Translations under genes and position numbers: made by a program
Origin: Diaphorobacter sp. HDW4A
GTDB taxonomy: Bacteria; Pseudomonadota; Gammaproteobacteria; Burkholderiales; Burkholderiaceae_C
Length of the DNA: 64,000 nucleotides
Assembly (NCBI RefSeq): GCF_011305995.1
Contig: NZ_CP049910.1
Location: forward strand, 3,348,001-3,412,000
Reading direction: 5' to 3'
Notes under the pieces: generated by a model
Told to the model about the DNA's origin: nothing
What the model saw: only the letters and a program-made list of their open reading frames with translations
Databases searched by the model: none
Shown here: positions 3,112 through 23,693 of the stretch, in pieces
How positions within the stretch are numbered: the first letter of the stretch is position 1
How the letters are laid out: each line of letters starts with the position of its first letter

Positions 3112-3597
3112 TCAGTTGGGTTCGATGTCCTTGCTGTAGACGATGAACCCCAGATGCGATGCAACCTTGTCGTACAAGGTGCGGCCTGCGGTGTTGGCGG
3201 TGTGCGTCTGCCAGTACACGCGGCTTGCGCCGGCGAGTTGGGCTTGTTCGTAGACGTGGTGGATCAGCGCCCTGCCCACGCCCTTGCCGCGCAGCTTGGG
3301 TTCGGTGAACAGGTCCTGCAGGTAGCAGACCGGCTCGATGCGAGTGGTGCTGCGGTGGTAGAGGTAGTGCACGAGACCGACCACGCGACCATCGATTTCC
3401 GCGACTGCGGCGAAGACGGGTTCGATGGGGTTGAACAGGCGTGACCAGAGCACGCGGGTGACCTCATCCGGCAGGGCGGTCGCGCCTTCGCGGCCGTAGA
3501 AGGCGTTGTAGCCCTTCCAGAGCGGGAGCCAGGCGTCGTGGTCCTGCTGGGTCATGGCGCGGACGTTGACGAGGGAATGTGTCGCAGAGGTGGTCAT
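3112..3597 (-). CDS. GNAT-family N-acetyltransferase
   Basis: The protein has the GNAT fold signatures: a central strand with VVGLVHYLYH, then the acetyl-CoA-binding LRGKGVGRAL loop and a following helix. The substrate is unknown. The ATG at 3597 gives 161 residues and fits the family; an in-frame GTG at 3642 would add 15 residues, and neither has a strong ribosome-binding site. It runs in the same direction as the YccS-like gene, which ends 17 bases upstream of that alternative GTG. Confidence 0.85.
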   Translation of the reverse strand: MTTSATHSLVNVRAMTQQDHDAWLPLWKGYNAFYGREGATALPDEVTRVLWSRLFNPIEPVFAAVAEIDGRVVGLVHYLYHRSTTRIEPVCYLQDLFTEPKLRGKGVGRALIHHVYEQAQLAGASRVYWQTHTANTAGRTLYDKVASHLGFIVYSKDIEPN

Positions 3598-3659
3598 GTG
3601 TGGATCGCGTTGGTCGATGGAACGAAGCGACACTTTACGCACAAACCACCGCGTGCCAG

Positions 3660-5864
3660 CTACTTTTTCGCAACCCTTGCCAACTCTCCCGCCACATGGC
3701 GTAGCGGTGCGATCTGGCGGCAGATGAGGGCCAGTTGGTTGAGCAGCGCGCGCAGCGATTCCGGGGTCGATTCAGCGTGTTCTTCCAGGGCGTTGGCCGC
3801 CGCGTCGCAAGTGGCTGAATCCGGCAGGCCGGGCTCGAACTGGCCTTGTGCGCGCAGGGCCGTGGCGATGGCGTGGAACTCCTTCACGGCCATCTCGCCC
3901 GAGGACATCAGCAAGCCGTCCTGCGCCGCGCCTTCGAGCTTGCCGCGATGCGCGCCGAGAGCCGAGATGTAGTTGAGCAGCGTGTGCGAGAGCACCAGTA
4001 TGCGCTGGCCCCAGAGCACGTTGCGGCGCGCCCAGTGCGGCTCCTGCATGAGCTGATGCAGCGCGCGCGAGAGTGCTGCATCGGCGTCGTGCGCATTGCG
4101 GCGGGCGACGCGGTAGTCGAGGTCGTCGTCCTTGCCATCGGTGTACTGCGAGAGGATTTCGCGCAGATAGGCGGCGCTTGCGGCCACTGCATTGGCGGCG
4201 ACGGCGTTCATGCGGCGGCCCTGCCAGTCGGGCAGCACCAGCAGCATGGCGATGGCCGAGATCACGCCGCCGATCAGCGTGTCGATCAGGCGTGGCGCGA
4301 TCAGCTCGTAGGCCGCGCCGGTGGTCTGGTTGAAGCACATCAGCACCATCAGCGTGATGGCCGCCGTACCGATCACATAGCGCTGGGTGCGCGTGATGAA
4401 GAACACCACGCCCGCGCACACTGCGATCAGCGCCTGCATGGCAAGACCCGGAAACAGCTTGAGCAACGCCCAACCGACGAGCAGCCCCAGCGCCGTGCCC
4501 GCGATGCGCTCGACCACGCGGGTGATGGTCGCGCCGTACGTCGCCTGACAGACGAACAGCGTGGTCAGCAAAATCCAGTGGCCGTGCTTCGGATCAGTGA
4601 GCTGCATGGCCACGCAACCGGCGGCGAGCGCGGCCGACAGGCGCACCGCATGGCGCAGCAGCGGCGAGTTCAGATGCAGCTGTTTGGCGATGCGCGCCCA
4701 TGCATCGGCAAAGCTGCGCGCCGAGGCATCGAACAACGTCACGTCGCCGAGCAGCGCGGTGTTGAGCGGGCCGGTGGCGAGCGTGAGCTGCGCATCCAGC
4801 GTGGTGAGATTGCGCGACAGCGCGCGCAGTGAGCGCAGCGGCCTGATCCACTGCGTGCGGCCCTGCTGCTCGAGATACGCAATCGCGTCCTCAAGATCGA
4901 CAATGGCATGCGCCACCTCAACGCCGCGCCGGAACGGCTTGCGCGCACGCAACGCCTCGGCCAGGCGCGCGCAGGTCACGCCCTGCAGACCCAGCACGCG
5001 CTGGCAGCGGAACAACACGTCGCTGTGGAACAGTTCGTCGGCCCAGTCGTTGTAGTGATAGTGCGAGGAACTCACGCGCTCGTGGATGTCCTGCGCAATA
5101 AAGTACAGGTTCAGGAAATGCAGCAGCTCGCCATGCGGTATCTTGCCTACCTGCATGCGGCTGAGCAGGCGCTCCTTCATCACGTTGAGCACCGCCACCA
5201 CGCGACCATTCGCCTGCGCAAGGCCGATGCGCCGCTGCTGCACATCGAGGCCGCGCACCGGCTCGAACAGGCTGGCCTTGAGCTGCATGTAGTCGCTGAG
5301 TTCCGCATAGAGCTGCGCCAGCCCCATGCGCAGTGGCCGCAGCGCAAACGCCATCTTCCAGAGCACCGAGAGCAGGCCATACCAGGCCGCACCGATCAGC
5401 AGAAGCACAGGCACAAGATGCGGAATCGTCTGCTGCGACGCGCCCACGCTCATCGCCGTGTAGAGCGCAAGAATCACCGACGCGGTGGAGACCGCGCGAT
5501 ACCGCTCGCCCACCGCGCCGAGCATGGTGAATGCGAACGCGACGCCGCACAGCGCGAGTGCAAACAGCGTGGGCGAATGGACGACCGTCTCGATGCTGAA
5601 CGACACCAGCGCAAAGCCCGCCAGCGTGATCAGCAGCGTGCGCAGTCGGCCGCGCCAGTTGTCGTCTGTCTCGGCAAGTGCGCTGGCGATCACGCCAAGG
5701 AACAGCGGCACCAGCCACGGCATGTGGCCCGTACTCCAGCACCACCCCATCGCGCCGCCAAGCGCCACCAGCACACGCAGTGCGTAGAGCGACGCTTCCT
5801 GTCCGCGCAGCCGATACAGCCAGCCACGCTGCGCAAAATCTCGTCCCGACAACTGCATGATCAC
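3660..5864 (-). CDS. yccS: FUSC/YccS-family inner membrane protein
   Basis: A 734-residue membrane protein with two hydrophobic blocks of several transmembrane helices each (about residues 25-180 and 400-540). Each is followed by a long soluble helical region, which is the duplicated architecture of the YccS/FUSC family (fusaric-acid-resistance-like). Relatives are thought to be aromatic-acid or inhibitor exporters, but YccS itself has no firm substrate. It lies 45 bp downstream of ppc on the same strand. The yccS symbol is by architecture rather than proven orthology. Confidence 0.8.
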   Translation of the reverse strand: MIMQLSGRDFAQRGWLYRLRGQEASLYALRVLVALGGAMGWCWSTGHMPWLVPLFLGVIASALAETDDNWRGRLRTLLITLAGFALVSFSIETVVHSPTLFALALCGVAFAFTMLGAVGERYRAVSTASVILALYTAMSVGASQQTIPHLVPVLLLIGAAWYGLLSVLWKMAFALRPLRMGLAQLYAELSDYMQLKASLFEPVRGLDVQQRRIGLAQANGRVVAVLNVMKERLLSRMQVGKIPHGELLHFLNLYFIAQDIHERVSSSHYHYNDWADELFHSDVLFRCQRVLGLQGVTCARLAEALRARKPFRRGVEVAHAIVDLEDAIAYLEQQGRTQWIRPLRSLRALSRNLTTLDAQLTLATGPLNTALLGDVTLFDASARSFADAWARIAKQLHLNSPLLRHAVRLSAALAAGCVAMQLTDPKHGHWILLTTLFVCQATYGATITRVVERIAGTALGLLVGWALLKLFPGLAMQALIAVCAGVVFFITRTQRYVIGTAAITLMVLMCFNQTTGAAYELIAPRLIDTLIGGVISAIAMLLVLPDWQGRRMNAVAANAVAASAAYLREILSQYTDGKDDDLDYRVARRNAHDADAALSRALHQLMQEPHWARRNVLWGQRILVLSHTLLNYISALGAHRGKLEGAAQDGLLMSSGEMAVKEFHAIATALRAQGQFEPGLPDSATCDAAANALEEHAESTPESLRALLNQLALICRQIAPLRHVAGELARVAKK

Positions 5865-5909
5865 CCTACTGAACTCACTCCAACAAACAGCTGCGGACGA
5901 TGCTGTGGA

Positions 5910-8759
5910 TCAGCCGGTATTGCGCAGCGCCGCTGCGATGCCGTTGATGGAAATCTGGATACCCGTTTTCACGCGATCATCGACCTGACCCAGACGCCAG
6001 CGGCGAATCAACTCGACCTGCAAGTGATGCAGCGGATCGATGTACGGGAAGCGGTGGCGAATCGAACGCGCAAGGGCTGAATTGTGCGCCAATCGCTGCT
6101 TGTCGCCGGTGATGCGCACCAGCGCGTCGGACGTGCGATGCCACTCGGCCTCAATCGATCCGAACACCTTCTTGCGCAGACGCGCGTCGGCCACCAGTTC
6201 GCTATAGCGCGAGGCCAGCTGCATGTCGCTCTTGGCCAGCACCATGTCCATGTTGGAGAGCAGCGTGCGAAAGAACGGCCATTGGCGGTACATCTTCTGC
6301 AGCAGCGCGAGCTGGGCCTTGGGATCTTTACCCGGTGCCTTGATGAAGTCTTCCACGGCCGAGCCGAAACCGAACCAGCCCGGCAGCGTCAGGCGGCACT
6401 GCCCCCAGCTGAAGCCCCAGGGAATCGCGCGCAGATCCTCGATCTTCTGATTGGCCTTGCGCGATGCGGGGCGCGAGCCGATGTTGAGCTCGGCGATCTC
6501 GCGGATCGGCGTGGCGCTGAAAAAATAGTCGGTGAACCCCGGCGTCTCGTAGACCAGCGCGCGGTAGGCGCCCATGCTGGCCTTGGAAAGCTCTTCGGCG
6601 GTCTCGAGAAACGCCTTGGTCGCGGGCTTGGTCGGCTGCAGCAGCGTGGCTTCAAGCGTCGCAGCGACCAGAGTTTCCAGATTGCGTCGGCCGATTTCCG
6701 GATTCGCATATTTGGAGGCGATCACCTCCCCCTGCTCCGTCAGGCGGATCTGTCCGCGCACGGTGCCCGGTGGCTGCGCCAGAATGGCCTGGTAGCTCGG
6801 GCCACCGCCGCGCCCCACCGTGCCGCCACGGCCGTGGAACATGCGCAGCTGGATCGGCGCACCGGCCTGCTTGGCGTTGAGTTCATCAAACAGCGTCACC
6901 AGCGCGTTCTCGGCGCGGTACAGTTCCCAGTTGCTGGTGAAGATGCCGCCGTCCTTGTTGCTGTCGCTGTAGCCGAGCATGATGTCCTGCTCCGCGCCGC
7001 TCGCGCGCACCAGCGCCGCATAGCCCGGCAGCTCGTAGAGCTCGCGCATGATGGGCGCGGCATTGCGCAGGTCCTCGATGGTCTCGAACAGCGGCACGAC
7101 GATGAGATCGGCGCGGCCGTTCTGGTCGAGCGTGCCGTGCATCAGCCCGACTTCCTTTTGCAACAGCAGCACCTCGAGCATGTCGCTCACGGTCTCGGTG
7201 TGGCTGATGATGTAGTGGCGGATCGCCTCGGTGCCGTAGAGCTCGCGCATCTTGAGCGCGGCCTCGAAGATCGCGATCTCGCCGGCCGTGTGCTCGGAAT
7301 ACTCCGCGCCCATCACGCGCAGCGGGCGCGCATCGGCCAGCAGCAGCATTAGCAGCTTGCGGCGTTCGCTCTCGGGCAGCGACGAATACTCCGGTGTGAT
7401 GCGGGCCTTGGCGAGCAGCTCGGCAACCACGCGCTCGTGCTGGTCGGAACTCTGGCGCAAATCGACCGTCGCCAGATGAAAGCCGAACACCTCCACCGCG
7501 CGGATCAGCGGACGCAGACGCTGCTGCGCCATCGCCGAGGCCTTGTGCGACAACAGCGACGACTCGATCACACGCAGGTCGGCCAAGAATTCCTGTGCGC
7601 TCACATAAGCGTTCTGCGGCGCGACGGCGTGGCGGGCCGCATCGCCGCCGGTCAGGTCCTTGAGCGTGGCGGCCAAGCGCGCGTAGATGCCGGTGAGCGC
7701 GCGGCGATACGGCTCGTCCGCGCGGTGCTCGCTGGTGTCGGGCGAGCGGTCGGCCAGCGCCAGCATCTCGGGCGAGACCTGCACCAGATTGGCCGACAGC
7801 GACAGCTCGCGGCCGAGGTTGTGCACCTCGGTCAGGTGGTGGCGCAGGGCAACTTCGGACTGGCGCTTCAGGGCCAGCTCTAGCGTGGCAGCGCTCACGT
7901 TCGGATTGCCGTCGCGGTCGCCGCCGATCCACTGGCCCATGCGCAGAAAGCTCGCCACATGCTGGTTGCCCAGCTCGCGCTCGAGCTCCGCATACAGGCG
8001 CGGGATCTCATGCAGGAAGGTGTATTCGTAGTACGAGAGCGCGTTCTCGATCTCGTCGGCCACGGTGAGCTTGGAGTAGCGCAACAAACGCGTTTGCCAG
8101 AGCTGGGCGACGCGCGCACGCAGGTGCGATTCGTTCTCGGCCAGCTCGCGCGGGGTGATCGGGTCCTTGGCGCTGTTGTAGAGCTGTGCGCGCATGAGGA
8201 TGTCGTCACGCTCGGTCAGCAGATCGGCAATCTCGCGCTCGGAATCCAGAATGCTCTTGCGCTGCACCTCGGTCGGGTGGGCGGTGAGCACCGGTGCCAC
8301 ATAGCTTTTGGCAAGCGACTGCGCCACGGCGCGCGGCGCAATGCCGGCCCAGCGCAGGCGCGCGAGCGCCACTTCGATGCTTCCCTCCTGCGCACTGCCC
8401 GCGCGCTCGTGTACGGCGCGACGGCGAATGTGGTGGCGGTCTTCGGCCAGATTGGCCAGATGGCTGAAATAGGTGAACGCGCGGATCACGCTCACCGTCT
8501 GGTCGCCAGTCAGGCCCTTGAGCAGCTTCTTGAGCGCCTTGTCCGCCTCCTGATCGGCATCGCGGCGAAACGCCACGGAGAGCTTGCGGATCTGCTCGAC
8601 CAGGTCGTAGGCGGCAACGCCTTCCTGCTCGCGGATCGCGTCGCCCAGAATGCGGCCGAGCAGACGGATATCCTGAATAAGCGGAAGATCCTTGTCGGTC
8701 TTGCGGGCCGTAGGAGCGTTGGTGGGGGCGTCGGATTTGCGGGCGGCGGTCGCGGACAT
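5910..8759 (-). CDS. ppc: Phosphoenolpyruvate carboxylase
   Basis: Converts phosphoenolpyruvate and bicarbonate to oxaloacetate, refilling the TCA cycle. Both family signatures are present: LTAHPTEVQ with its catalytic histidine near residue 160, and [14 protein letters not shown] near residue 640. The protein ends in the typical C-terminal RNTG. The ATG at 8759 (949 residues, AGGAG 11 bases upstream) is preferred over an upstream GTG at 8807. It is divergent from hemC across about 160 bp. Confidence 0.97.
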
Positions 8760-8922
8760 GCGGAAAGTCACTCCTGAACTTTGGGACAATGAAGGCGGCA
8801 TAGACACAGATCAAACCGCCTTCGCCCGAATGGGTACGGAGCGGCTGTAACCTGCTGCAACGCAACATGCTAGCATCCTGCAGCAGTGTTGAAGGACGCA
8901 GAAGCGCCAATAACATAAAGTC

Positions 8923-9864
8923 ATGAAAATAAATTCATCGCAGCCCACTCCGTTCGTCATCGCAACCCGCGAAAGCCGCCTCGCCCTCTGGCAGGCCGAG
9001 CATGTCAAGGCCCTGCTCGAATCGGGCGGCCATGCCACAAATCTGCTGGGCATGACCACCAAGGGCGACCAGATCCTCGACCGCACGCTCTCCAAGGTTG
9101 GCGGCAAGGGCTTGTTCGTGAAAGAACTGGAACTCGCGCTGGAAGAAGGCCGCGCCGATCTGGCCGTGCATTCGCTCAAGGACGTGCCGATGGAGCTGCC
9201 CGCAGGCTTTGAACTCGCCTGCGTGATGGAGCGCGAAGATCCGCGCGACGCCTTCGTCTCCCCCCAATATGCAACGCTCGCCGATCTGCCCCAGGGCGCG
9301 GTGGTCGGCACCTCCAGCCTGCGCCGCCAAGCCCTACTGCAAGCGCTGCGCCCCGATCTCCAAATCGAGCCTCTGCGTGGCAACCTCGACACCCGCCTGC
9401 GCAAGCTCGACGAAGGTCAGTACGCGGCCATCGTTCTCGCTGCGGCTGGGCTCAAGCGGCTCGGCATGGAATCGCGCATCCGCCAAATCTTCGAGCCCGA
9501 AGAAATGCTGCCATCCGCCGGCCAAGGCGCGCTCGGCATCGAAATCCGCAATGGCCGCGACGACCTCAAGCAGGCCCTTGCCCCCCTCGCCCATCAGCAG
9601 ACCTGGTTGACCGTGACCGCCGAGCGCGCCGTGAGCCGCGCCATGGGCGGCAGTTGCTCGGTGCCTCTGGCCGCGCATGGCCGCTGGACGGGCAATACCC
9701 TGCGCCTCGATGCCGCCTGGGGCGATGTGGACAGCAAGCAGGCACTGATCCGCGCCAGCACCGAGTCGAGCCAGATCACCGACCTCGCATCCGCCGACGC
9801 GCTCGGCGTGGCCGTGGCCGACAAGCTCAAGGCAGCGGGCGCCAAGGTCAGCACGGCTTCCTGA
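8923..9864 (+). CDS. hemC: Porphobilinogen deaminase (hydroxymethylbilane synthase)
   Basis: Joins four porphobilinogen units into hydroxymethylbilane on a dipyrromethane cofactor. The cofactor cysteine is Cys245 in [12 protein letters not shown]. The N-terminal [14 protein letters not shown] and [11 protein letters not shown] motifs are standard. 313 residues is the usual length. It begins the hemC-hemD-hemX-hemY operon; hemD follows after 7 bp. Confidence 0.97.
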
Positions 9865-9871
9865 AGCAGCC

Positions 9872-10657
9872 ATGACACGCGTTCTGATCACCCGCCCATC
9901 GCCCGAAGCCGAGCGGTGGGTGGAGCAGTTGCGGGCGCAGCACATTGATGCCGAGGCCCTGCCACTGCTGTCCATCACCGCCGTGCGCGATCCGCAATTG
10001 CAGGCCGAACTCTCCACGGCCCGTGCCCGGCTGAAAAACTTTCATGCGCTGATGTTCGTCAGCGGCAACGCGGCAGCCGAGTTCCTGGCCGATGGCGTGC
10101 AACTCGCAAACGCTACAAACTTGCCCCGCTTCTGGTCCCCCGGCCCCGGCACGGCGCGCGCGCTGGTGCAGGCGGGTGTGGCCGCATCGCTGATCGACGG
10201 CCCGGCGGCGGAATCGAGCCAGTTCGATTCGGAGAGCCTGTGGCTCGCCGTCGCCCCGCAGATCGGCCCCGGCAAGCGGGTGCTGATCGTGCGCGGAGCC
10301 AACTCCCCGCTGACCAAGGGCGGCAACGGCCGCGACTGGCTAGCCGCGCAGATTGCGGCTGCCGGAGGCGAGACGGAATTCGTCGCGGCCTACGAAAGAA
10401 CGGGCTCGCGGCTCGACTCCAGCGCCAAAGACCTTGCTCGGCGTGCGGCGTCGGACGGTACAGTGTGGTTTTTCAGCAGTTCCGAAGCCATCCAGAATCT
10501 GATGCGGGAAATGCCACAAACCAGCTGGGACAAGGCTTGCGCGCTGGTCACGCACCCGCGCATCGCCGAAGCAGCGCGCGCCGTAGGGTTTGGCCACGTA
10601 AGTGAGTGCCGCCCTACACTGCAGGACGTGACGGCCTCTATAAAATCAACGGTATGA
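9872..10657 (+). CDS. hemD: Uroporphyrinogen-III synthase
   Basis: Cyclises hydroxymethylbilane with inversion of ring D to give uroporphyrinogen III. The family is poorly conserved, but the N-terminal VLITRPSPEAERW, the GPGTARAL segment and the position directly after hemC support the call. 261 residues. Its stop overlaps the hemX start (ATGA), implying translational coupling. Confidence 0.93.
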   Translation: MTRVLITRPSPEAERWVEQLRAQHIDAEALPLLSITAVRDPQLQAELSTARARLKNFHALMFVSGNAAAEFLADGVQLANATNLPRFWSPGPGTARALVQAGVAASLIDGPAAESSQFDSESLWLAVAPQIGPGKRVLIVRGANSPLTKGGNGRDWLAAQIAAAGGETEFVAAYERTGSRLDSSAKDLARRAASDGTVWFFSSSEAIQNLMREMPQTSWDKACALVTHPRIAEAARAVGFGHVSECRPTLQDVTASIKSTV

Positions 10658-11832
10658 GCCTCGAGCCCCAACACACCATCCACGAAGACACACCGGACGC
10701 GCCGGGCGCGGTGCCCCGGGCGTCGGTCCCTGCGCCAGCCCCGGCTCCAGCTCCCGCCGCCGCGTATGCAGCGCCGGCTCCCCCAGTTGCTGCCGTCCAC
10801 GCAGCTGCTGCGGGCGGGTCGCGCCTGCTGGTCACCATCGTGGGCGCGGTCGCCATCGCCGGTCTCGCGAGCAGCTTCATGCTGTGGCAGAAGCTCTCCA
10901 ACATCCAGGAACAGCTCGCCCGCCAGACCGCCGACTCCGGCGCGCAGGCCATCGAGGCCCGCACCATGGCCCGCGAGGCCTCAGACGTGGCGCGCGACAC
11001 CTCGGCCCGCCTCACCGTGGCCGAATCCCGAGTAAGCGAGGTCGCCCTGCAGCGCACCCAGCTCGAGGAGCTGATGCAAAGCCTCTCGCGTTCGCGCGAC
11101 GAGAATCTGGTGGTCGACATCGAATCCGGCCTGCGCCTGGCGCTGCAGCAGTCGCAGCTCACAGGTAGCCTCGAGCCCGTGGTCGCCGCGCTCAAGAGCG
11201 CCGACCAGCGCATCGAACGCGCCGCGCAGCCGCGCCTCGCCCCGGTGCAACGCGCCATCGCGCATGACATCGACCGCATCGGCAAGTCCGCCGTGACCGA
11301 CACCTCGGGCCTGCTCGGCCGCGTGGACGATCTCACGCGCCAGGTCGACGAGATCCCGCTGCTCAACGCCGTGGTGCAGGCCTCGACCATGCGCCAGCGC
11401 AACGCCAATTCGCGCAACGCCGCCGAAGCAGCCGCCCCCCCGCCCGACGCCGACGAGCCGCGCTGGAAAACCGTGCTCAACACCACCTGGGAAGCCATTG
11501 CCGCCGAAGCCCGTGGCCTTGTGCGCGTGAGCCGCATCGATCAGCCTGATGCCGTGCTGATCGCGCCCCAGCAAGCGTATTTCCTGCGCGAGAACCTCAA
11601 GCTCTCGCTGATGAACGCGCGCTTGGGCATCCTCTCGCGCCGCCTTGACTCCGCACGTTTGGACCTCGCCAACGCCAAGACCGCGCTGGTCAAGTATTTC
11701 GAACCCGATTCGCGCTACACGCGCCGCGCCATCGAAACCATCTCGGAGCTGCAGAACAACATGCAGGGCATGGAGCTGCCGCGCCTAGACGAAACCTTTG
11801 CGGCGCTGACCACCGCTGCGGCGGGCCGATGA
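10654..11832 (+). CDS. hemX: HemX-like inner membrane protein, uroporphyrinogen-III C-methyltransferase-like
   Basis: A 392-residue single-pass membrane protein. It has a Pro/Ala-rich cytoplasmic N-terminus, a transmembrane helix at about residues 57-76, then a long helical periplasmic domain. The name comes from the E. coli hemCDXY operon; HemX has no demonstrated methyltransferase activity and is thought to help organise haem synthesis at the membrane. The start was chosen at the ATG overlapping the hemD stop rather than an upstream in-frame ATG at 10606 inside hemD. Confidence 0.9.
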   Translation: MSLEPQHTIHEDTPDAPGAVPRASVPAPAPAPAPAAAYAAPAPPVAAVHAAAAGGSRLLVTIVGAVAIAGLASSFMLWQKLSNIQEQLARQTADSGAQAIEARTMAREASDVARDTSARLTVAESRVSEVALQRTQLEELMQSLSRSRDENLVVDIESGLRLALQQSQLTGSLEPVVAALKSADQRIERAAQPRLAPVQRAIAHDIDRIGKSAVTDTSGLLGRVDDLTRQVDEIPLLNAVVQASTMRQRNANSRNAAEAAAPPPDADEPRWKTVLNTTWEAIAAEARGLVRVSRIDQPDAVLIAPQQAYFLRENLKLSLMNARLGILSRRLDSARLDLANAKTALVKYFEPDSRYTRRAIETISELQNNMQGMELPRLDETFAALTTAAAGR

Positions 11833-14227: not shown

Positions 14228-15124
14228 ATGATTTCACGGATCCAGATCGCGAAACCAGACATCCTTAAGGAGTTCTCGCAGGGGTCGTCCATCTTGCGGT
14301 TGCGTGATGTCGCAGAGGTCTTCAACCAGAAGCGCGAGTTTTGGCGCCTGGCCAAGAGCATGTCGCTCACCGCGTTCGTGCGCTTCATGACCGAGAAGAC
14401 CGACCTTCGATCAGTCAGCTATCGCTTCCCGCAGCGGCATGTTTCTGGGTACACGTGGGGTGAAGTGCCGATTCTGGAGACGCTTCTTGGACTGGTCGAG
14501 GGCAGTTACCTCAGCCACTACACCGCGCTACGGGTTCACGGCCTTACCGAACAAGTGCCCAAGACGATCTACTTCACCAAGGAGAAGTCGAGCGGTTCGG
14601 CATTCGGCCGAGAGGCAAACGAGCTGTATGATCAGTCGGCCATTGACACTGCGTTCAGTCATCCTCCGAGGGCATCCAAGAACGAGCTTGAACTGACCAA
14701 AGAGCAGGTTCGAGTGGTGATGCTGGAGAGCGCCTATCAGGGCAACCTCGGCGTGACCGCTGGCGAGGTGAACTGGGGCGGCTCCCGGCCGCTGAATCTT
14801 CGCTATACCTCACTGGAACGGACGATGATTGACGTCGTCGTTCGCCCCTTCTATGCAGGGGGAGTCTTCGAGGTTGCCAAGGCCTTCGAGAACGCGAAGA
14901 CAAAGCTCTCAGTAAACGCCATGCAAGCCATGTTGAAGCGGATGGCCTTTGGCTACCCGTACCACCAGGCGATTGGCTACTACTTGGAACGCGCCGCCTA
15001 CAAGCCGACCGTAGTCGAGCTATTCCGACGGCTTCCAATGGAGCGGGACTTCTACCTCACCCACAACATGGGCAAGACCGCCTATAGCAGTCGCTGGCGC
15101 TTATTCGTTCCAGAAGGCTTCTAG
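14228..15124 (+). CDS. AbiEi-like antitoxin / transcriptional regulator
   Basis: A 298-residue protein of the AbiEi antitoxin type. An N-terminal winged-helix-like region (residues ~10-70) precedes the characteristic SYLSHYTALRVHGL and PKTIYF segment (residues 93-116) and a later RYTSLERTMIDVV motif. In AbiE systems AbiEi binds inverted repeats in its own promoter and counters the AbiEii nucleotidyltransferase; the three palindromes just upstream fit that role. Unusually, the partner toxin-like gene is on the opposite strand, and the two coding ends overlap by 24 bp. The GGAGG-preceded ATG is a confident start. Confidence 0.82.
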   Translation: MISRIQIAKPDILKEFSQGSSILRLRDVAEVFNQKREFWRLAKSMSLTAFVRFMTEKTDLRSVSYRFPQRHVSGYTWGEVPILETLLGLVEGSYLSHYTALRVHGLTEQVPKTIYFTKEKSSGSAFGREANELYDQSAIDTAFSHPPRASKNELELTKEQVRVVMLESAYQGNLGVTAGEVNWGGSRPLNLRYTSLERTMIDVVVRPFYAGGVFEVAKAFENAKTKLSVNAMQAMLKRMAFGYPYHQAIGYYLERAAYKPTVVELFRRLPMERDFYLTHNMGKTAYSSRWRLFVPEGF

Positions 15125-15997
15125 CTTCTTGACCTCCCTCACCACAAAGTCGAAATAGTGGTCGAAGGGTCCGACCTGTACACCAGGCTTCATCGCCGCT
15201 CGAACCTCCTCGTACCCTAGGGCGTGGAAGTCTCTTGTCTCCGGGATGTTCGCCAAGAACAAGAGCGGAACACGCTTGGCGGCAAACATCTGCATGACCA
15301 TCTGTTGCGACTCCTCTGCCGACAAGTCGATGCCGAACTTCCTGACCAGGGCCTCAATGTCGATGAAGTCGCGAGCGCGCTGATTCCCCAGGTTTGAGCG
15401 TTGAATAATTTGTCCGTACTCCGGCATCTGTTGGCAGATGGCACGCAGCTTCTCGCACACGATCATTGCAGGGGAATAGACGTAGATCGTGTAGCCATCG
15501 AGTTCGTGGGCTTCCTTGTGCTCCACATACTCGTGCCGGCTGATGTCAATGGTGAACTTCGGGCCTTCGCCTAGTCGGATGGCCTCGCGGCGCATCTGTG
15601 CAAGATCCCGTCCCACCTCGCTGGCCCGCCTATTCGAGATCAGTTTGAACTCGACGAGATACCCACCCCAAAACGACGCTAGCTCGTCAGGCATTCGCCC
15701 TGGCCGAACCGACAGTTTGATGTCGAACGCAAGGTAGCTCTGCAGATCGAAGGTGGCTTCCAGCGCCCGCTGGAGGTTTGGAAGGACAGCCTCGTGATCC
15801 AGGTCGTCCTTCATAGAGAAGTCCAAGTCCACCGAAGCTCTGGAATTGACTTGGTGAACGATGTCCATCGCGTTGCCACCCTTGAGCACCAAGACGTCCA
15901 TCAGTTCATCGTCGGCAAACATGGCCACGATGGCGGCCCGCTTTATAGCCTCCAATTGCTCGCCGGTCGGAACCTCCGCGGCTGCCCCCTTCTTCAT
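15101..15997 (-). CDS. AbiEii/AbiGii-family nucleotidyltransferase (putative toxin)
   Basis: A 298-residue nucleotidyltransferase-fold protein. The hallmark motif LKGGNAMD (residues 38-45) is followed by RASVDLDFS with the DxD pair Asp57/Asp59, as in AbiEii toxins, which modify RNA, probably tRNA 3' ends. The ATG at 15997 has a GGGAG ribosome-binding site; a longer frame back to 16213 lacks support. It is convergent with the AbiEi-like gene instead of following it in one operon, so it needs its own promoter in the 200 bp upstream, where I see no clear consensus. It could also be a solo nucleotidyltransferase. Confidence 0.82.
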   Translation of the reverse strand: MKKGAAAEVPTGEQLEAIKRAAIVAMFADDELMDVLVLKGGNAMDIVHQVNSRASVDLDFSMKDDLDHEAVLPNLQRALEATFDLQSYLAFDIKLSVRPGRMPDELASFWGGYLVEFKLISNRRASEVGRDLAQMRREAIRLGEGPKFTIDISRHEYVEHKEAHELDGYTIYVYSPAMIVCEKLRAICQQMPEYGQIIQRSNLGNQRARDFIDIEALVRKFGIDLSAEESQQMVMQMFAAKRVPLLFLANIPETRDFHALGYEEVRAAMKPGVQVGPFDHYFDFVVREVKKLEAFWNE

Positions 15998-16199
15998 AGC
16001 ATCTCCCGTTGTCGCTTCTGCATGTTGTCTGAATCCGGTCGTGAGCATACCTGTCAGCCAATTGATCTGCAGCAAAGACCGTTGCCGCTGCAGACCTTCC
16101 CTGCAGCCAGCAACGACGGCTTCTGGCCGACTGCTGCCATCCATGGATACGGGCCTGAAGTCTGCATGAGCTCTGCCTCCCTCATGCAATTCCCGCCCC

Positions 16200-18221
16200 T
16201 CACCCCACCCCACGCACCAGATACCCCAACAGCGTAGCCACCACCAGAATCCCCATGAACACGTCCCAGCGTTGCTTGCGCATGTAGTACAGCGCGATGA
16301 CGGCGACCATGGCGAAGATAGTGATCAGGCGGTTGTGCAGGATCGATCCCAGGAAGAAGGTGATGGCGATCTGGGCCCAGTAGACCATCATGTTGCGGGT
16401 GCCGCGTTCCTTTGGCGGGTCGGACTGCGGCGCGGTCTGTGATGCGTTCTGCTGACGATTTCCTGATTGCGACGTGCGCGCGGTCCCGTTGGCGTTGCCG
16501 CCGGTTTGCGGTTGCAGTTGCAGTTGCGGTTGCGGTTGCGCGGATTGGCGGGCGGCCTTGCGGTCTTCGCGGCGTTGTTGGTCGGTTTTTTCGAGCACAG
16601 GGGCGCTGGGCTCGGCGGGTTGCCACCAGGTTTTTCCGTCGGCGCGCACGGGCGGGTGTCCGGCGGCGGAGAGACGGCGGAAGTCTCCTGCGTTGGTGGT
16701 CGTTGCACGATCTGCGCGACTGGCAGCGAGTAGCGCGTCATTGGCTCGGTCGATGGGGTTGCGCATGAGTTGCTGTGCGCTCGCCAGCAAGGGCTTGCCT
16801 TGCCTGGCGTCGATCTGGTGCACGAAGGTGGCGAGGCCCAGTAGTTGCGATGGCTGCGCTGCATGGCCTTCCCAGTGTGCGGGTTTGGCTGCGGCGCCCG
16901 GTTGAGATGCGCGGTGCAGTGCGGCGCGCAGGCGTCTGCGGGTTTCGCGGGAGACGCTGGGGGTGTCACCGTTGACGACCAAACCGGTCACCTCCTGCCT
17001 GCGGCCCTTGCGCATCACGCGTTCCTTGTCGGGGTGCGGCGTGAAGCCTTCGTCGCGCAGAATCCAGCGCACGCGGCCAAGCAGGCGGCCGACGTTGTCG
17101 TGTGCGGCTTCACCGGATGCGGAGAACGTGAGGTCGTCGGCATAACGCGTGTAGACAAAACCGAGCTGAGCGGCGAGGCCCTGCAGACGGCGGTCCATGC
17201 GGCGGCACAGCAGGTTGGTGAGCATGGGACTGGTCGGCGCGCCCTGCGGCAATACGCGCTCCCGCGCCTTGCCGCCGACGAACAATTTCTCGCCATCCAC
17301 CTGCCAGACCTGCGCGCGGTTTTCGCTGCACAGCAGCGCGAACACGGTGGCGATCTTCTCGCCGTAGCCAAGCTGGCGGAATACTCCCTTGATGCGGCCA
17401 AAGGCGATGCTCGGGAAAAAATCCTTCACATCGAGATTGATCACCACGTCCTGCCCCGCATGCGGTTTGGCGTTGCTGATGATCGAGCGGCCGGCGAGAA
17501 AACCGTGCGCCGCATCATGCGCGGGCATCTTCGCGAGCACGTTGTCGAGCACCCAATACTGCGCACGCTTCAAACGCGGCATGGGCGCGGAGATCAGGCG
17601 CTCGCCACCCGTTTTCTTGGGCAGAGTGAACGAGTGGTAATGGTGCGAGCGCGCCACCTCGCGGTGAAAGCTCAGGAACCGCAGTTCCGCCACGCTCACG
17701 CCCATAGACTGCGCGAGCTGCGCGGCGCTCGTCAACGCGGGCAGGCCGTTGACCGCAAGCCGCGTGAGATCTGGCACCGCGCGATCACGGGCGCGCTTTG
17801 GTTTCTTGTCGCTCTGCGCTATGGGCTCATCGGCATCCTGCAGCGAAGCCGAAACACCCGGACCCAGATAACCCACATGCGTGGCACGCTTGTCATGCCA
17901 CGCCAGCGCCTTCTCATAACGCTGCTGCGCCTGCGCGCGCTTGGTCACCTCGCGCTTGTCGCGCGCGTCCTTCATGCGCTGCTTGCGCATCTCGCGCAGC
18001 GCCCGCTCGGGATCGCGGCGCACCGCCAGTTGCTTGTGCAGCTCGGACAACTCGCGCTGCAACTCACCCTCGCGCCGGATCAGCTCCTCGGCCAACTGCG
18101 GCTGGCCCGAGTCCTTGGCCCAGAACCCCAGCCGCTGCATTTCCTCAAGAATGACTTCCTGCTTGCTCGACTGCGAAATGCGCTCGTAGATTTCCGCACG
18201 GGTAGGTTGAGGATTGCTCAT
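16200..18221 (-). CDS. Retron reverse transcriptase with N-terminal extension and membrane-spanning tail
   Basis: 673 residues. Residues 1-120 are charged and helical, probably coiled coil. The RT domain (~165-430) carries the retron marks: NAKPH at 250-254 (NAxxH), Asp264/Asp267 in LDVKDFF, QGAPTSP at 326-332, catalytic YADD at 360-363 and VTG at 411-413. A Gln/Pro-rich linker (561-573) leads to about three hydrophobic helices at 612-670, an unusual membrane anchor. The enzyme should copy the adjacent msr-msd RNA into branched ssDNA. Start is ATG with GGAGG at normal spacing. It lies downstream of the HEAT and SWIM genes and the ncRNA on one strand. An internal ATG at 16391 could give a separate small membrane protein. 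Confidence 0.93.
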   Translation of the reverse strand: MSNPQPTRAEIYERISQSSKQEVILEEMQRLGFWAKDSGQPQLAEELIRREGELQRELSELHKQLAVRRDPERALREMRKQRMKDARDKREVTKRAQAQQRYEKALAWHDKRATHVGYLGPGVSASLQDADEPIAQSDKKPKRARDRAVPDLTRLAVNGLPALTSAAQLAQSMGVSVAELRFLSFHREVARSHHYHSFTLPKKTGGERLISAPMPRLKRAQYWVLDNVLAKMPAHDAAHGFLAGRSIISNAKPHAGQDVVINLDVKDFFPSIAFGRIKGVFRQLGYGEKIATVFALLCSENRAQVWQVDGEKLFVGGKARERVLPQGAPTSPMLTNLLCRRMDRRLQGLAAQLGFVYTRYADDLTFSASGEAAHDNVGRLLGRVRWILRDEGFTPHPDKERVMRKGRRQEVTGLVVNGDTPSVSRETRRRLRAALHRASQPGAAAKPAHWEGHAAQPSQLLGLATFVHQIDARQGKPLLASAQQLMRNPIDRANDALLAASRADRATTTNAGDFRRLSAAGHPPVRADGKTWWQPAEPSAPVLEKTDQQRREDRKAARQSAQPQPQLQLQPQTGGNANGTARTSQSGNRQQNASQTAPQSDPPKERGTRNMMVYWAQIAITFFLGSILHNRLITIFAMVAVIALYYMRKQRWDVFMGILVVATLLGYLVRGVG

Positions 18222-18485
18222 GCAATACCTCCAACCAAAGAACGTGAATGAATCCGGATTTCAACGGCTGAACCACGAAGCGCAGCGAGCGTACGAATCA
18301 ACAGCCACAACGACAAGACAGCCCCTGAGACGCGGCGTCGCGGGCGCAGACAGTACTCCGGTACGGCAAGTCCGCGCAACAAAGTATCACGGGCTGTATT
18401 GTCGCCCCCGCACGACCGACCAACCGAAGCCGCAAGGCTTCGTGAAGAACAAACAGACAAAAAAGAGGAAGGGGGAAAAGAAAAA
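18222..18485. other. Spacer between retron RNA and RT gene
   Basis: This 264-bp stretch on the transcribed side between msd and the RT start holds no gene. More than half is the dispersed structured repeat (18315-18453). In many retrons the RT follows the msd closely, so the repeat probably inserted here. Confidence 0.6.
18315..18453 (+). repeat. Dispersed structured repeat, copy A (inside the retron operon)
   Basis: Same element as at 2894-3030 and 52988-53127. It lies between the msr-msd locus and the RT gene, in the orientation opposite to retron transcription. The inner stem is GTAC/GTAC, and the terminal CGAAGCC/GGCTTCG hairpin is intact. Confidence 0.8.
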
Positions 18486-18718
18486 TCCGGAGCAACGTGC
18501 ATCTCGTCGAAGAGCCTGTAAGGCTCACGGGACGGGAGCTGTTCGCTCGACGCCACCCCGCGACGGTAGTGCAGTTTCGCTTGTGGCAAGCCACTCAGGA
18601 AATGCACTACCGTCGCTGGGGTGGCACAGTGAAAACGGCGCCCGTGGTGCATGAAACGGCAGTTCACAAGGGCGGCGATACACCGCCCGGATTGCAAGAG
18701 CCTGCGCGTTGCTCCGGA
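18486..18718 (-). ncRNA. Retron msr-msd RNA
   Basis: Read on the minus strand. The ends form the a1/a2 duplex: TCCGGAGCAACG (18718-18707) pairs perfectly over 12 bases with 18497-18486, and 16 bases pair with one mismatch. The msr part has a GGGCGG/CCGCCC hairpin (18688-18670). The msd part (18625-18552) is a 22-bp stem with a single bulge, then an inner TTTC/GAAA stem and a GTGG-CTTG-CCAC tip. A TAAACT -10-like box lies at 18731-18726, about 7 bases before a1; no good -35 is seen. It sits 53 bp after the SWIM stop codon and upstream of the RT. The branching guanosine cannot be placed from sequence alone. Confidence 0.88.
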
Positions 18719-18771
18719 AGAAAAGAGTTTAGTGGAAACCAAAGAACAATGGGTGAAAAAAACGTTCATCC

Positions 18772-20520
18772 TCACGCGATTTCTCCCGGGCTCGTGGTTG
18801 TCTTGTCGTTGGTCGCTTCGCCAACGCGCTTGGCGTGCGTGCGCGTCGCGTCGAGTTCGGGCTGGGCCATCAGGCGCAGCGCCACGATGTGCTGGCACGG
18901 GCCTTGGTAGAGCTTGTGCTGCTGGAAATGATTGCAGGTGCAGGTCGCATCAGTCATCTGCTCGTCGGCGTTCAATTCCAACTGGGTTTCAAAATAACGC
19001 TTCGCGTCATTACCACGAGCGATCTTTCCGCGGATGCGGGTGTGGCCCTCAGCATAGTCAAGCGACGGCATCGGCACCTTGTGCTCACGGATCAATGTGA
19101 GCGCGGCCTCTTCCTCGGGCGATGCGGGCACCAGCACCTGATCGGCGGTGAGCGGCTCACGCAGCAGCTCGCGCCATGCATAGCGCTCGGCCGACAAGTC
19201 GTAGACCGCGCGGCCCGCGTGCATCCAGTTGGTCATCGCCGCATGCACCTGCGCGGCTGACAGGCCTGTCGCTGCAGCCAGTTCCTGCGCCGTGGCCTGC
19301 CAGCGTGACTGCAGGTGGTTGCCCACCGCCTTGATGTCCGCATCCTTCACATCGGCCTGCGGTGCGAGCAGATGAAAGCGCGCGCTGGCGGCCCAGTCGT
19401 TCGCGCTCCAGCCTGACAGGCCAAGCGTCACGGTGACCAGCCCCATATCGATCACCCAGAAGCTCGGCATGCCCGTGCCAAGCAGATGCACGCGCACACG
19501 CGTGGCCTGCGAGATCAAACGCTCCAGCGTAAGCAGCCTGCGGCGTCCCCACATGCGTATCGTCTTGCCATAGGTGAGCGGCTCGCCCACCACCTGCGAG
19601 CGCTTGGTGACCAAGCGCTTTTCCCATGGCTCGAACACGATGACCGGCGCGGTGTTCGGGCGCAGCTCGAAGCGCATGGAACGCGGGCCGTGCTTCTCGC
19701 GCTGGCCGCGCAGTTGCGCGCAGATGTTGAACAGATCCATCGCATGCAGATCGATCACGGTTGCGGGCAGCGCCATCGCGCTCGATACCTGCAGAAAGCC
19801 GCGCAGCCAGCTGTCGGGCAGATCGATCTTTTCCTCGCGCAGGCCGGGGTCGTCGCCGGTCTGCACGTCAAAGCCCGAGGGATCGAGCTGCAGCCGCGTG
19901 TCCTTGTAGTTGCGGATCTTCTGGAACTCTTCGTAGAGGCTTGCTGAGTAGTCGATGTTGGTCGTACCGCACTGCATCTCGCCCGCATGCTCGAACGCGG
20001 CATGTTGGATGCTGACCGAGCAGTAGCTCGATTCATCCTGGCTGAACGCCTCAAACAGCAGCCGGTCCGGGTGCACAGTGATCACCGGATCGAGTACATA
20101 CCAGAGGTCGCGGTTGTTCTGGTACAGCCAGTCGAAGTATTTGCGCTGCGCCTTGTAGAACGGACTCAGCGCCTTGGATTTGCTCGCGTAGATGGTCTTG
20201 AGCTCGGTGCGGATTTCCTTGGCGCGCTCCTCGGCGCTGCCGGTATCAGCCATGAAGCCCGCAAGCAACTGTGACTCGTGCTCGGCCAGCCATTGGCAGT
20301 AGGCGGACTTGTCGCGGCCGCGCGTGCGCATGTCGCTCACTACCACGTCGTGCAGCGCGGAGAGACCCTCGCGCACCTGCAGATAGGCGAGGCCATCGCG
20401 CTTCAAGGTGCCGTCAAAACGCGTGGGCTGTCTGAGCAGATCGGGGGCAAATGAAAACGATTGGGAGGCTGCCGTGTCACTGACGTTGGTCGTGCCGTAG
20501 TACTGGTATCTAAATTCCAT
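18772..20520 (-). CDS. SWIM zinc-finger protein of the retron operon
   Basis: 582 residues. A SWIM motif CxC-x12-CxH lies near the C-terminus (Cys527, Cys529, Cys542, His544). It is preceded by a region that could be winged helix (around residues 425-470). SWIM domains bind zinc and nucleic acid or protein. The start is the ATG at 20520, 8 bp after the HEAT gene stop; the open frame extends further upstream only inside that gene. As I recall, predicted type XIII retrons pair a winged-helix-SWIM protein with an ARM-repeat protein. The biochemical role (effector, or sensor of msDNA) is unknown. Confidence 0.82.
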   Translation of the reverse strand: MEFRYQYYGTTNVSDTAASQSFSFAPDLLRQPTRFDGTLKRDGLAYLQVREGLSALHDVVVSDMRTRGRDKSAYCQWLAEHESQLLAGFMADTGSAEERAKEIRTELKTIYASKSKALSPFYKAQRKYFDWLYQNNRDLWYVLDPVITVHPDRLLFEAFSQDESSYCSVSIQHAAFEHAGEMQCGTTNIDYSASLYEEFQKIRNYKDTRLQLDPSGFDVQTGDDPGLREEKIDLPDSWLRGFLQVSSAMALPATVIDLHAMDLFNICAQLRGQREKHGPRSMRFELRPNTAPVIVFEPWEKRLVTKRSQVVGEPLTYGKTIRMWGRRRLLTLERLISQATRVRVHLLGTGMPSFWVIDMGLVTVTLGLSGWSANDWAASARFHLLAPQADVKDADIKAVGNHLQSRWQATAQELAAATGLSAAQVHAAMTNWMHAGRAVYDLSAERYAWRELLREPLTADQVLVPASPEEEAALTLIREHKVPMPSLDYAEGHTRIRGKIARGNDAKRYFETQLELNADEQMTDATCTCNHFQQHKLYQGPCQHIVALRLMAQPELDATRTHAKRVGEATNDKTTTSPGEIA

Positions 20521-20528
20521 TGCAGACC

Positions 20529-23500
20529 TCAGTGGACGACGGGGATTGCGGCGGGGGTGGCGACGGGAGTTGCGCCGCTGCGCGCACGCGGCTCGGCAGC
20601 AACGGGCTGCATGAAGCTCTGCGCCAGTTCGGGATGGCGGGCCGCGATGTCGCGCAACCCGGCCACGTAGTCGGGCTGATCGGCAAGACTCGCGCTCACC
20701 ACCTGGCGCGCGAAGATGCCAGCGACGACCGCCGCCGTCTGCGGCGAATCGAGCTGCGAGCGCAGAAAGCCCAGCACCCGCGTTTTGCTGGCGCGCGCGC
20801 GATACACCTGGCTGAGCACCGCCAGAAAATACGGTTGCAGCTCCACAAGACGCGCGGCGCGATCCGTGGGCGATTCGTCGGGCAGGCTCAGCAGCCACTG
20901 CGTCACGAACAGCTGCCCGCTGGTGCTCGGATGCTGCGAGAGTCGCGTGAGGCACATGCTGGCCTCGGGCGCGCTCATGCGCTGAGTGAGCCGCTGTCGG
21001 CCCAACGCCTGCACCCAGACCTGCGGATGATCGACCCACGCGATCAGCAGCTCGGGCGACAACGCCGATGCAGGCAAGCGCTCGCCAAACATGGTGCGCG
21101 CGTATTCCTGCGTGTCCGCAAAGCGCGCATCGGCGAGCGGCAGCAACTGCTCGGCCTGCTCCGGCGTGGTCGCATCCATCGGCGTGAGCCGCGCATCGAG
21201 ACTGCGGCGGCCACGCGCGCGCACATCCGTGTCGGCATGCCGCGCAATCGTGGACCACTGGCGCAGCGTGTAGGCATCGTCCCCCAGCGATTCAAGCGCC
21301 CATGCGCCATAGCGCTGCGCGCCCGTCGCACGCGCCTGTAATGCGCGCCATGTGCCCGATGCATCGCGCGCGGGCGCCACGTCTTTGAGCGGGCCGGTCA
21401 GCAGCGCGAGCACATCGTCGTATACGCCCTCGCCTTCTTCGGCGCGGAACAGCACATCGTGCAGGCGCTCGGCAATGCGCGCGTTGCAGCGCGAATCCCC
21501 AGCAAGCCGCGTGATGATGGGCGCCACCGCCCGGCGCAGCTCGCGGTGCGGCGACACGGCGAACTCGGCCAGCACATCGGCCTGTTCGTAGAGCACATCG
21601 TCGGGCAGACTGCCGAGCAATTGGATACCGCAGGCCACGCGCGCGGGCTCGTCGGAGCCCAGCAAATTGCGCAACGAACTCGCGGGCAGCGTCTGCAACG
21701 CGGCGGGATGCACCAGCACCCAGGCCGTTGCGATCTGCACCAACGGCGTGAGCGAATGCTCCAGCAGGCGCAGCAGCGGTAGTGGCGGCACGCCCGACGC
21801 ATGCCTTGCAAGCGGCGTATTCTCGGCAAACAGCGAGACGATGGTGTCACGGATGTCGGCGAGCGCGGGATTCGATTCATCGACCGTCGGCAGCGCCGCC
21901 AGCAGCGCTAGCGCCACTGCGGCCCCATCGGCAAACGACAGCAGCGCCACGCCCTGCGTGCGCAGCACGGCGGCCGGAGAAATCAGCAGCGCCGCGATCA
22001 GTTCGGCGTCCGCCGCCGCGCCCACGCGGTCACGTGAAAGCCAGGCGCTCAAGTAGTCTGCCGCTGGCCCATCGCCGCATTGCGCGAGCACCAAAAGCCA
22101 CGGACGCAGCGCCTCGTTATCGCGCAAATCGGCCATGTGCTTTTGCGCGACAGCAAGACCGAGCGCGGCAGCAGGTGCATAACTCTGATGCAGCAGCGCC
22201 GCAATCTGCGCGGGCTCTCGCTGCAACAGAAAATCCATCTGATCGGAGAGCGCGCGCGTGAACGCCCAGAGCAGCAGCCGCGACTGGCTCTGGCCGACGA
22301 GCGCGAGCAATTGCGGCGCGTGCGCGTTCCACATCTCCGAGAGGCCCTCGACGCGATTGGGCGCAAGACGCTCCACGTCGATCGGCATGCTCACACCCCA
22401 GCTCCAAGCACGATGCGAGGCATGCAGATCGGCCCAATGCGGCAGCACCAGCCGCGCGGCGAGCAGCCACTGCATCTCGGGCAGCGTGCGTCCGCGCGAC
22501 GCGGGCGCGGACGCGCAGAGCTCGTCCATGCGCCGCAGCAGCACCACGGCCAGCGTCGGTGCCTGGCTGTGCTCAGCAGCGGCCAGACGCCGCAGATGCC
22601 GCCAGCCGCGCAGACGCATGTAGAGCGCCGTCTCGCGATGGTATTGGGCGAGCGTGGACTTGCGGCCATCAAAGCGGCCATGCAGCACGGCCAGCGTCGC
22701 ATGGTCGTGCCGCCACTCCGCGCGCTTGTAGATGCGCTTGACGGCGGGCCAGAGATCGCTGGTCAGGTCGACACGCTCCAGCTCGTCGTGCGAGGCACGC
22801 GCCATGGCCTCATCGAAGCAGCCGAGTTCGTCGAGCTGCAACAGCCGCTTGGCATCGTCAGACAACGTGCGTGACTTGCGCCGCGTGCGGCCGTCGAACG
22901 AATCCACAGCGTCGCGCTCGGCAAACAGCTGGCGCACGGGCTCAAGCGCCGCATCGCGCTCCGCAGCGCCAAGCAGCGCCAGCCAAGCCTGCCGTGCGAT
23001 GTCGCGCGTGGCGTCGCTGCGCCCGCGCTCGGACAGCGCCTGCATGGCCGCCGCCGCACCGCCATCACCGAGGCGGCCGATCAGATACGCAAGGCAGTAG
23101 TCGAGCAGATCGTCGCCCGACTCGAGCAGCGCGATCAGGCGCGGCACCTGAGCGTAAAGCAACTGCTGCGCCTGCCCTCCGCGCACCGGATCGGCATATT
23201 CCGCAAGCCGCCAGACAAGCCTGCCCTGCTGCTTGGCCGCCAGCCGACGCCACGCGCCGCCGTCGAGCTTGGCGCACAGCGCAGCGATGGCACCGGCTTG
23301 CGCGGGCGACTGCGCCGCGCGAGCCGTTTCAGATGCCTTCGCATCAATCGCCGCGACCTGCGCCACCACCTCATCAAAGCCCTGTTGCGAGGTCAGCACC
23401 TCGCCCGCCGCAAGCCGCTGCTGCAAATAACCCAGCGCCCGTTGCCGCGCGAGCACTAGCGTCACGGGCATGGGCGTCAGCGTGCTCTCGTCGACCTTCA

Positions 23501-23693
23501 CGACCAGCCCCGCCTTGAGATGCGTGGTCTGCAGCGTGACCACATGGCGCGCGGAGGCGGCATCCCCCGGCTGGTCCAACGCCACCACGCGCAACGTGCT
23601 GATGCGTTCGTTGGGACCTTGGGTTCTGGACAGTACGGCTTGAGCGACGAGGTTCATGCGGTGGGCATCATTCAAATGAGTGAGCTGCGGCAC
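20529..23693 (-). CDS. Large HEAT/ARM-like helical repeat protein of the retron operon
   Basis: About 1054 residues, almost entirely Leu/Ala-rich amphipathic helices with HEAT/ARM-like periodicity, and no catalytic motif that I recognise. A large repeat scaffold next to a SWIM protein and a retron RT is the gene set I recall for predicted type XIII retrons, where it would be the ARM component. The GTG at 23693 or the ATG at 23657 (12 residues later) may be the true start; neither has a clear ribosome-binding site. It is the first gene of the four-part retron operon, 113 bp downstream of a co-directional LysR gene. Confidence 0.75.
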   Translation of the reverse strand: MPQLTHLNDAHRMNLVAQAVLSRTQGPNERISTLRVVALDQPGDAASARHVVTLQTTHLKAGLVVKVDESTLTPMPVTLVLARQRALGYLQQRLAAGEVLTSQQGFDEVVAQVAAIDAKASETARAAQSPAQAGAIAALCAKLDGGAWRRLAAKQQGRLVWRLAEYADPVRGGQAQQLLYAQVPRLIALLESGDDLLDYCLAYLIGRLGDGGAAAAMQALSERGRSDATRDIARQAWLALLGAAERDAALEPVRQLFAERDAVDSFDGRTRRKSRTLSDDAKRLLQLDELGCFDEAMARASHDELERVDLTSDLWPAVKRIYKRAEWRHDHATLAVLHGRFDGRKSTLAQYHRETALYMRLRGWRHLRRLAAAEHSQAPTLAVVLLRRMDELCASAPASRGRTLPEMQWLLAARLVLPHWADLHASHRAWSWGVSMPIDVERLAPNRVEGLSEMWNAHAPQLLALVGQSQSRLLLWAFTRALSDQMDFLLQREPAQIAALLHQSYAPAAALGLAVAQKHMADLRDNEALRPWLLVLAQCGDGPAADYLSAWLSRDRVGAAADAELIAALLISPAAVLRTQGVALLSFADGAAVALALLAALPTVDESNPALADIRDTIVSLFAENTPLARHASGVPPLPLLRLLEHSLTPLVQIATAWVLVHPAALQTLPASSLRNLLGSDEPARVACGIQLLGSLPDDVLYEQADVLAEFAVSPHRELRRAVAPIITRLAGDSRCNARIAERLHDVLFRAEEGEGVYDDVLALLTGPLKDVAPARDASGTWRALQARATGAQRYGAWALESLGDDAYTLRQWSTIARHADTDVRARGRRSLDARLTPMDATTPEQAEQLLPLADARFADTQEYARTMFGERLPASALSPELLIAWVDHPQVWVQALGRQRLTQRMSAPEASMCLTRLSQHPSTSGQLFVTQWLLSLPDESPTDRAARLVELQPYFLAVLSQVYRARASKTRVLGFLRSQLDSPQTAAVVAGIFARQVVSASLADQPDYVAGLRDIAARHPELAQSFMQPVAAEPRARSGATPVATPAAIPVVH

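Follow-up and report, generated by a model that had tools for sequence, protein, structure and literature searches.

A type XIII retron of Diaphorobacter sp. HDW4A with a SWIM accessory protein predicted to adopt a sliding-clamp-like fold

Retrons are reverse transcriptase (RT) systems that probably guard cells against viruses. In the Ec86 retron, the RNA carries a1/a2 repeats and an msd hairpin, as does the locus described here, and the effector differs from the accessory proteins of this locus. Type XIII retrons, a class reportedly proposed by Mestre et al. in 2020, are represented in PADLOC by the profiles RT_XIII, SWIM_XIII, WGR_XIII and HEAT-ARM_XIII. The present analysis concerns a locus within a 64,000-nt stretch of the Diaphorobacter sp. 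HDW4A genome (contig NZ_CP049910.1; the whole stretch is hereafter the window), which is almost certainly a retron of this class and whose SWIM helper is predicted to have a sliding-clamp shape. This shape provides a concrete, testable idea of how a barely studied class could work.

In the literature searched, no type XIII mechanism was described, the founding classification and a retron census lying outside that search and possibly holding an earlier description; nor did that literature, which excluded the founding classification paper, describe a clamp fold or an RNA family for the class. The one relevant mention is a passage of PMC11953036 in which a type XIII retron appears among PADLOC calls in Variovorax, and neither of the words XIII and SWIM occurs in the retron papers PMC12548924, PMC12262390 and PMC13405049.

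Operon layout, RNA and reverse transcriptase core

The minus strand of the window carries four co-directional parts, namely a large helical-repeat protein, a SWIM protein, a non-coding RNA and an RT, with the following features:

20529-23693, minus strand: open reading frame (ORF) of the WGR/HEAT ("ARM") accessory protein (PADLOC WGR_XIII)
18772-20520, minus strand: SWIM accessory protein, 582 aa (PADLOC SWIM_XIII; Pfam SWIM; AlphaFold2 model and fold searches)
18726-18731, minus strand: TAAACT, a -10-like box ending 7 nt ahead of a1 (TAnACT in related loci)
18486-18718, minus strand: msr-msd non-coding RNA (fold z -8.65; covariation in 22 aligned sequences; model R1, 264.5 bits)
18703-18718, minus strand: a1 arm, pairing with 18486-18501 (two-sided changes in 11 of 12 core pairs)
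18670-18688, minus strand: msr hairpin GGGCGGUG/UCGCCGCCC (helix 3; 100% of cells paired; two-sided change in 2 of 8 pairs)
18548-18628, minus strand: msd stem-loop, template of the presumed multicopy single-stranded DNA (msDNA) (helix 6; 23 pairs, 18 of them two-sided; 99.8% of cells paired)
18486-18501, minus strand: a2 arm, pairing with a1
16200-18221, minus strand: retron RT, 673 aa (PADLOC RT_XIII; Pfam RVT_1)

The original prediction, made from the DNA letters, had described a complete four-part retron on one minus-strand unit, and all parts were recovered, together with the spacings of 8 nt between the ARM/HEAT ORF and the SWIM gene and of 53 nt between the SWIM stop codon and the msr-msd RNA. 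The interval it had given for the operon (18486-23693) contains three of the parts, with the RT lying just outside. Its type XIII label, based on the combination of ARM, winged-helix SWIM and RT proteins, agrees with PADLOC, in which the three proteins match WGR_XIII (707 bits, E 1.3e-212), SWIM_XIII (688.5 bits, E 1.2e-207) and RT_XIII (576.9 bits, E 8.7e-174). A lack of co-occurrence of the three genes had been named as a possible refutation; among 51 loci collected with the SWIM protein, one genome per species, 46 have a WGR/HEAT gene upstream of the SWIM gene as well as an RT downstream. Thus, the earlier interpretation was supported; it had overlooked that the SWIM protein is predicted to fold like a sliding clamp and that the RT ends in a hydrophobic tail, both discussed below.

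The msr-msd RNA, which had been called strong, is well supported by folding and covariation. The region 18470-18771 folds at -137.2 kcal/mol (z -8.65), and none of 100 shuffles was as good. In an alignment of 22 Burkholderiales sequences including the window (21 distinct rows), 98.9% of cells pair and two-sided changes occur in 40 of 73 pairs, with none of 500 shuffles coming near; when the partner columns were slid by 1-3 positions, the covariation score fell from 0.385 to 0.091 or lower. The a1/a2 inverted repeats and the msd hairpin lie upstream of the RT, as required of a retron. A covariance model (R1) built from this alignment, whose score for the window refers to a sequence within its training set, finds a sense-strand RNA in 36 of 38 sources outside the training set (E 1e-26 to 4e-9; by record title Bacteroidota, Cyanobacteria, Myxococcota and a metagenome-assembled genome of Blastocatellia), missing loci L034 and L072, and no Rfam model reaches its threshold at the RNA. 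With this model, type XIII RNA can be annotated across phyla. Since a TAnACT box beginning 10-13 nt ahead of a1 is found in 21 of 21 related loci (the 22nd, L024, has TAAAAT), the RNA may have its own promoter, and the invariant G17 and G18 right after a1 are candidates for the 2',5' branch G of the msDNA.

The RT comprises an N-terminal region (1-150), a core (~151-480), a variable linker containing WWQP (532-535) and a hydrophobic tail (~611-673). The NAxxH (N250, A251, H254), YADD (360-363) and VTG (411-413) motifs noted previously are present, and N250, A251, H254, Y360, D362, D363, V411, T412 and G413 are invariant across 36 aligned RTs; Pfam RVT_1 scores 77.4 bits. Placement outside retrons, which would have spoken against the original prediction, finds no support, as the best solved relatives are retron RTs (Ec86, E 6e-67), a comparison made without an RT tree. 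The solved retron RTs, Ec86 among them (PDB 7v9x, 8qbk), resemble it in the core. However, the Ec86 profile match starts at position 133, leaving the N-terminal region (17772-18221), which all 36 type XIII RTs of the alignment share, without a counterpart.

Two further observations concern the RNA and its surroundings. The stretch of ~260 nt that separates a2 from the RT start (18222-18480) folds weakly (z -1.96); this gap is of similar length in L010 and L062 and short in Delftia loci. Three cyanobacterial loci (L033:11651-13605, L036:11659-14506 and L037:11657-12861) each contain two msr-msd copies that are ~70% identical, one behind the SWIM gene and one before the RT, 0.8-2.4 kb apart.

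The SWIM protein, the RT tail and a proposed mechanism

Three regions are distinguished in the SWIM protein: a predicted PCNA-like clamp fold (residues 34-374), a winged-helix-like part (~393-450, from predicted secondary structure) and the SWIM zinc finger (510-548). The zinc finger, already recognized in the original prediction, scores 28 bits with Pfam SWIM against a cut-off of 19.6, and C527, C529, C542 and H544 of its CxC...CxH motif are invariant in 45 sequences. The AlphaFold2 model and fold searches recover a two-domain clamp fold, and the protein very probably has, as far as structure prediction can tell, a sliding-clamp fold of the PCNA/9-1-1 type. It differs from PCNA and 9-1-1 clamps in lacking a sequence-profile match to them, in adding a coiled-coil insertion in domain 1, the winged-helix-like part and the SWIM finger, and in being a bacterial protein encoded beside an RT.

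The second accessory protein is predicted to combine a WGR-like domain with HEAT repeats. The AlphaFold2 model (mean predicted local distance difference test score, pLDDT, 85.7; predicted template modelling score, pTM, 0.62) contains an N-terminal beta domain (14-104) followed by helical repeats, in line with the helical-repeat ARM protein described earlier. Its true start is more likely ATG 23657 (1042 aa) than GTG 23693, the one previously taken: the PADLOC match sets in at residue 13, the model shows disorder over residues 1-11, and the start in one relative, L029, aligns there by eye. Among 30 aligned members, Pfam WGR matches 10 and HEAT_2 matches 15, the window copy giving no HEAT_2 match. 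WGR domains bind DNA ends in PARP proteins. As had been stated, neither accessory protein carries a known toxin domain according to Pfam and NCBIfam.

The RT tail was compared among 33 complete RTs outside Burkholderiales and 12 complete Burkholderiales RTs, after removal of L012, L023 and L054, which are truncated at contig ends. Outside Burkholderiales, 26 of 33 carry an aromatic pair within the last 8 residues, either WW or WY (18 RTs, e.g. DKPWWNVV and KKKWWKLF) or FF (8 Flavobacteriaceae, e.g. KVSSFFKK). In the 12 Burkholderiales RTs, WW lies 125-155 residues from the end, with a linker and then a hydrophobic tail behind it, an arrangement that, by eye, the window RT, L061 and L062 share with the others. 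The C-terminal hydrophobic segment is present in 12/12 Burkholderiales RTs vs 0/33 others; between genus relatives the linker is 44-88% identical and the hydrophobic tail 70-100%. In this respect the window departs from the PADLOC class profiles, since the RT_XIII match stops at residue 561, past WW and before the hydrophobic tail. Membrane helices in a retron recall the type IV retron Ec48, which we take to have a two-transmembrane effector; the segment considered here differs in being fused to the RT and in being seen in Burkholderiales only. It could be an anchor or an effector in this lineage.

Because a clamp-like protein is encoded in the same operon, the simplest reading of the aromatic tail is that of a docking peptide for the SWIM protein. 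The FF tail resembles a PCNA-interacting protein (PIP) box, and WWKLF the bacterial clamp-binding motif. Alternatively, the peptide might bind the clamp of the host itself. The clamp-RT link is thus put forward tentatively, and the trigger of any response with lower confidence still.

Taken together, the overall proposal, to which somewhat less than even likelihood is given, is that of a selected type XIII retron with a clamp-like SWIM partner, a guarded complex, an abortive response and a tail effector. The RT would make a branched msDNA hairpin from 18486-18718, and the clamp-like SWIM protein would hold the RT by its aromatic tail peptide while engaging the msDNA duplex or other DNA, with the WGR/HEAT protein capping DNA ends or scaffolding the complex. 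The complex, once assembled, would be at rest in its guarded state. Phages that target or imitate replication factors, or that degrade or modify msDNA, might disturb it and provoke an abortive response. In Burkholderiales, the hydrophobic RT tail might anchor the complex in the membrane and would be the best candidate for the killing part. The more specific leading reading, in which the SWIM protein forms a PCNA-like ring, docks the RT through the aromatic peptide and links the WGR sensor of DNA ends with msDNA or with intermediates of phage replication, the Burkholderiales RT having gained a membrane effector behind the peptide, is possible but doubtful. If true, a clamp-shaped accessory protein would tie retrons to the replication machinery and hint at which phage activity type XIII retrons sense, and an RT with a dedicated clamp would be a resource for DNA-writing tools.

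Several points weigh against this proposal. The clamp fold rests on one AlphaFold2 model (pLDDT 77.6) in which domain 1 has a coiled-coil insertion and low-confidence stretches, and the Foldseek superpositions are loose (template modelling score by target mostly 0.5-0.6, root-mean-square deviation mostly 7-11). A genome-wide search with Pfam PCNA_N at E up to 10 gave no match, though it was positive in 6/14 control genomes, and no clamp family matched eight SWIM proteins at E up to 10, where filters drop most matches above 0.1; the protein is therefore named PCNA-like and not classed as PCNA. The WW tail is a poor fit to the PIP-box pattern. Pfam WGR has no match in the window copy; omega values for the hydrophobic tail (0-0.29) and for the linker (0.17-0.27, one undefined) overlap; and no msDNA, phage or interaction data for the system were found.

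A further point, the absence of the aromatic peptide from cyanobacterial RTs (0/7), also favours an alternative that is a real contender while falling short of probable, namely a type XIII retron of the ordinary kind, whose clamp fold would be a mere scaffold and whose RT tails would be unrelated tethers, with SWIM/HEAT as a borrowed effector module (acting, for example, by binding DNA and blocking transcription or replication) that would be silenced by RT-msDNA, by analogy with other tripartite retrons. The homologous SWIM protein of L074 (29% identity, hhalign probability 99.7) points the same way, as it belongs to a group with two DUF6493/HEAT-type neighbours (L074:5299-11632) that differs from the window in having no RT among the genes examined, no RNA search having been made there; SWIM and HEAT-type genes can thus also group without a retron. 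Left unexplained by such a scaffold is the C-terminal aromatic pair of RTs in several lineages.

The wider L074 region (3549-11632) also contains a phage-type integrase beside these genes. PADLOC labels the L074 protein SWIM_XIII (175.9 bits), so that the SWIM_XIII model alone can mislabel.

Distribution, inheritance and selection

The loci outside the 46 complete ones comprise L019 and L054, cut by contig ends; L032, with no detected HEAT gene; L029, with the RNA and the HEAT gene and no RT; and L034, with SWIM alone. Of the 46, two carry an incomplete HEAT gene (L023, cut by a contig end, and L027, in pieces), and in six cyanobacterial loci (L033, L036, L037, L039, L041 and L044) and L059 the RT lies 1.2-3.0 kb behind the SWIM gene. 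Judged by sequence comparison, the RT, the msr-msd RNA and the two accessory genes are one conserved, intact and selected unit.

A role in DNA repair or replication control instead of phage defence, with the RT and its clamp-like partner making or placing DNA, would be consistent with the presence of the SWIM gene in all six genomes of the window's genus (including the named relatives Diaphorobacter caeni and D. aerolatus), with shared flanks, and with its near absence from mobile elements (at E 1e-20, one hit among 72,556 plasmid records; at E 1e-5, none among 50,697 phage records). The sole plasmid record is a 2.8-Mb Methylobacterium bullatum replicon (NZ_LR743510.1:342394-344073). Elsewhere, however, the distribution is patchy: 16 of 399 genomes in the family, six of which belong to the window's genus, 6 of 51 in the genus of the Delftia genome G246 and, with the window counted, 4 of 299 in a sample of the phylum. 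A LysR gene adjoins the retron in four of five genus relatives (L010, L012, L061 and L062), the fifth, L011, keeping genes further out, and downstream genes are common to three of the four relatives with downstream sequence, L010 being the exception. In the four LysR-bearing relatives, RT identity is 72-93% vs 92-98% for LysR, a contrast typical of defence genes. On balance, this housekeeping role is improbable.

Among eight other Burkholderiales loci, the Delftia loci L013, L014 and L020 share both flanks and L017 the downstream side, and two Xenophilus loci share flanks, whereas no pair across these groups does. As flanks are common within genera and not between groups, the retron seems to be passed on within a genus and to have moved from one genus to another.

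Selection on the retron is purifying, as omega against four relatives ranges over 0.06-0.10 in the RT core, 0.04-0.17 in the clamp region and 0.14-0.24 in the HEAT protein. A decayed or inactive retron is hardly credible: the window copy gave no sign of decay, its frames are intact, the catalytic motifs are present, changes in the RNA compensate one another and omega lies well below 1.

No match to AbiEii- or AbiEi-like genes was obtained near the retrons of L010, L011, L061 and L062. In the window, an AbiEii-like nucleotidyltransferase gene (15101-16213, minus strand) just behind the RT and an AbiEi-like gene (14228-15124, plus strand) are convergent with a 24-nt overlap; AbiE genes are usually co-directional.
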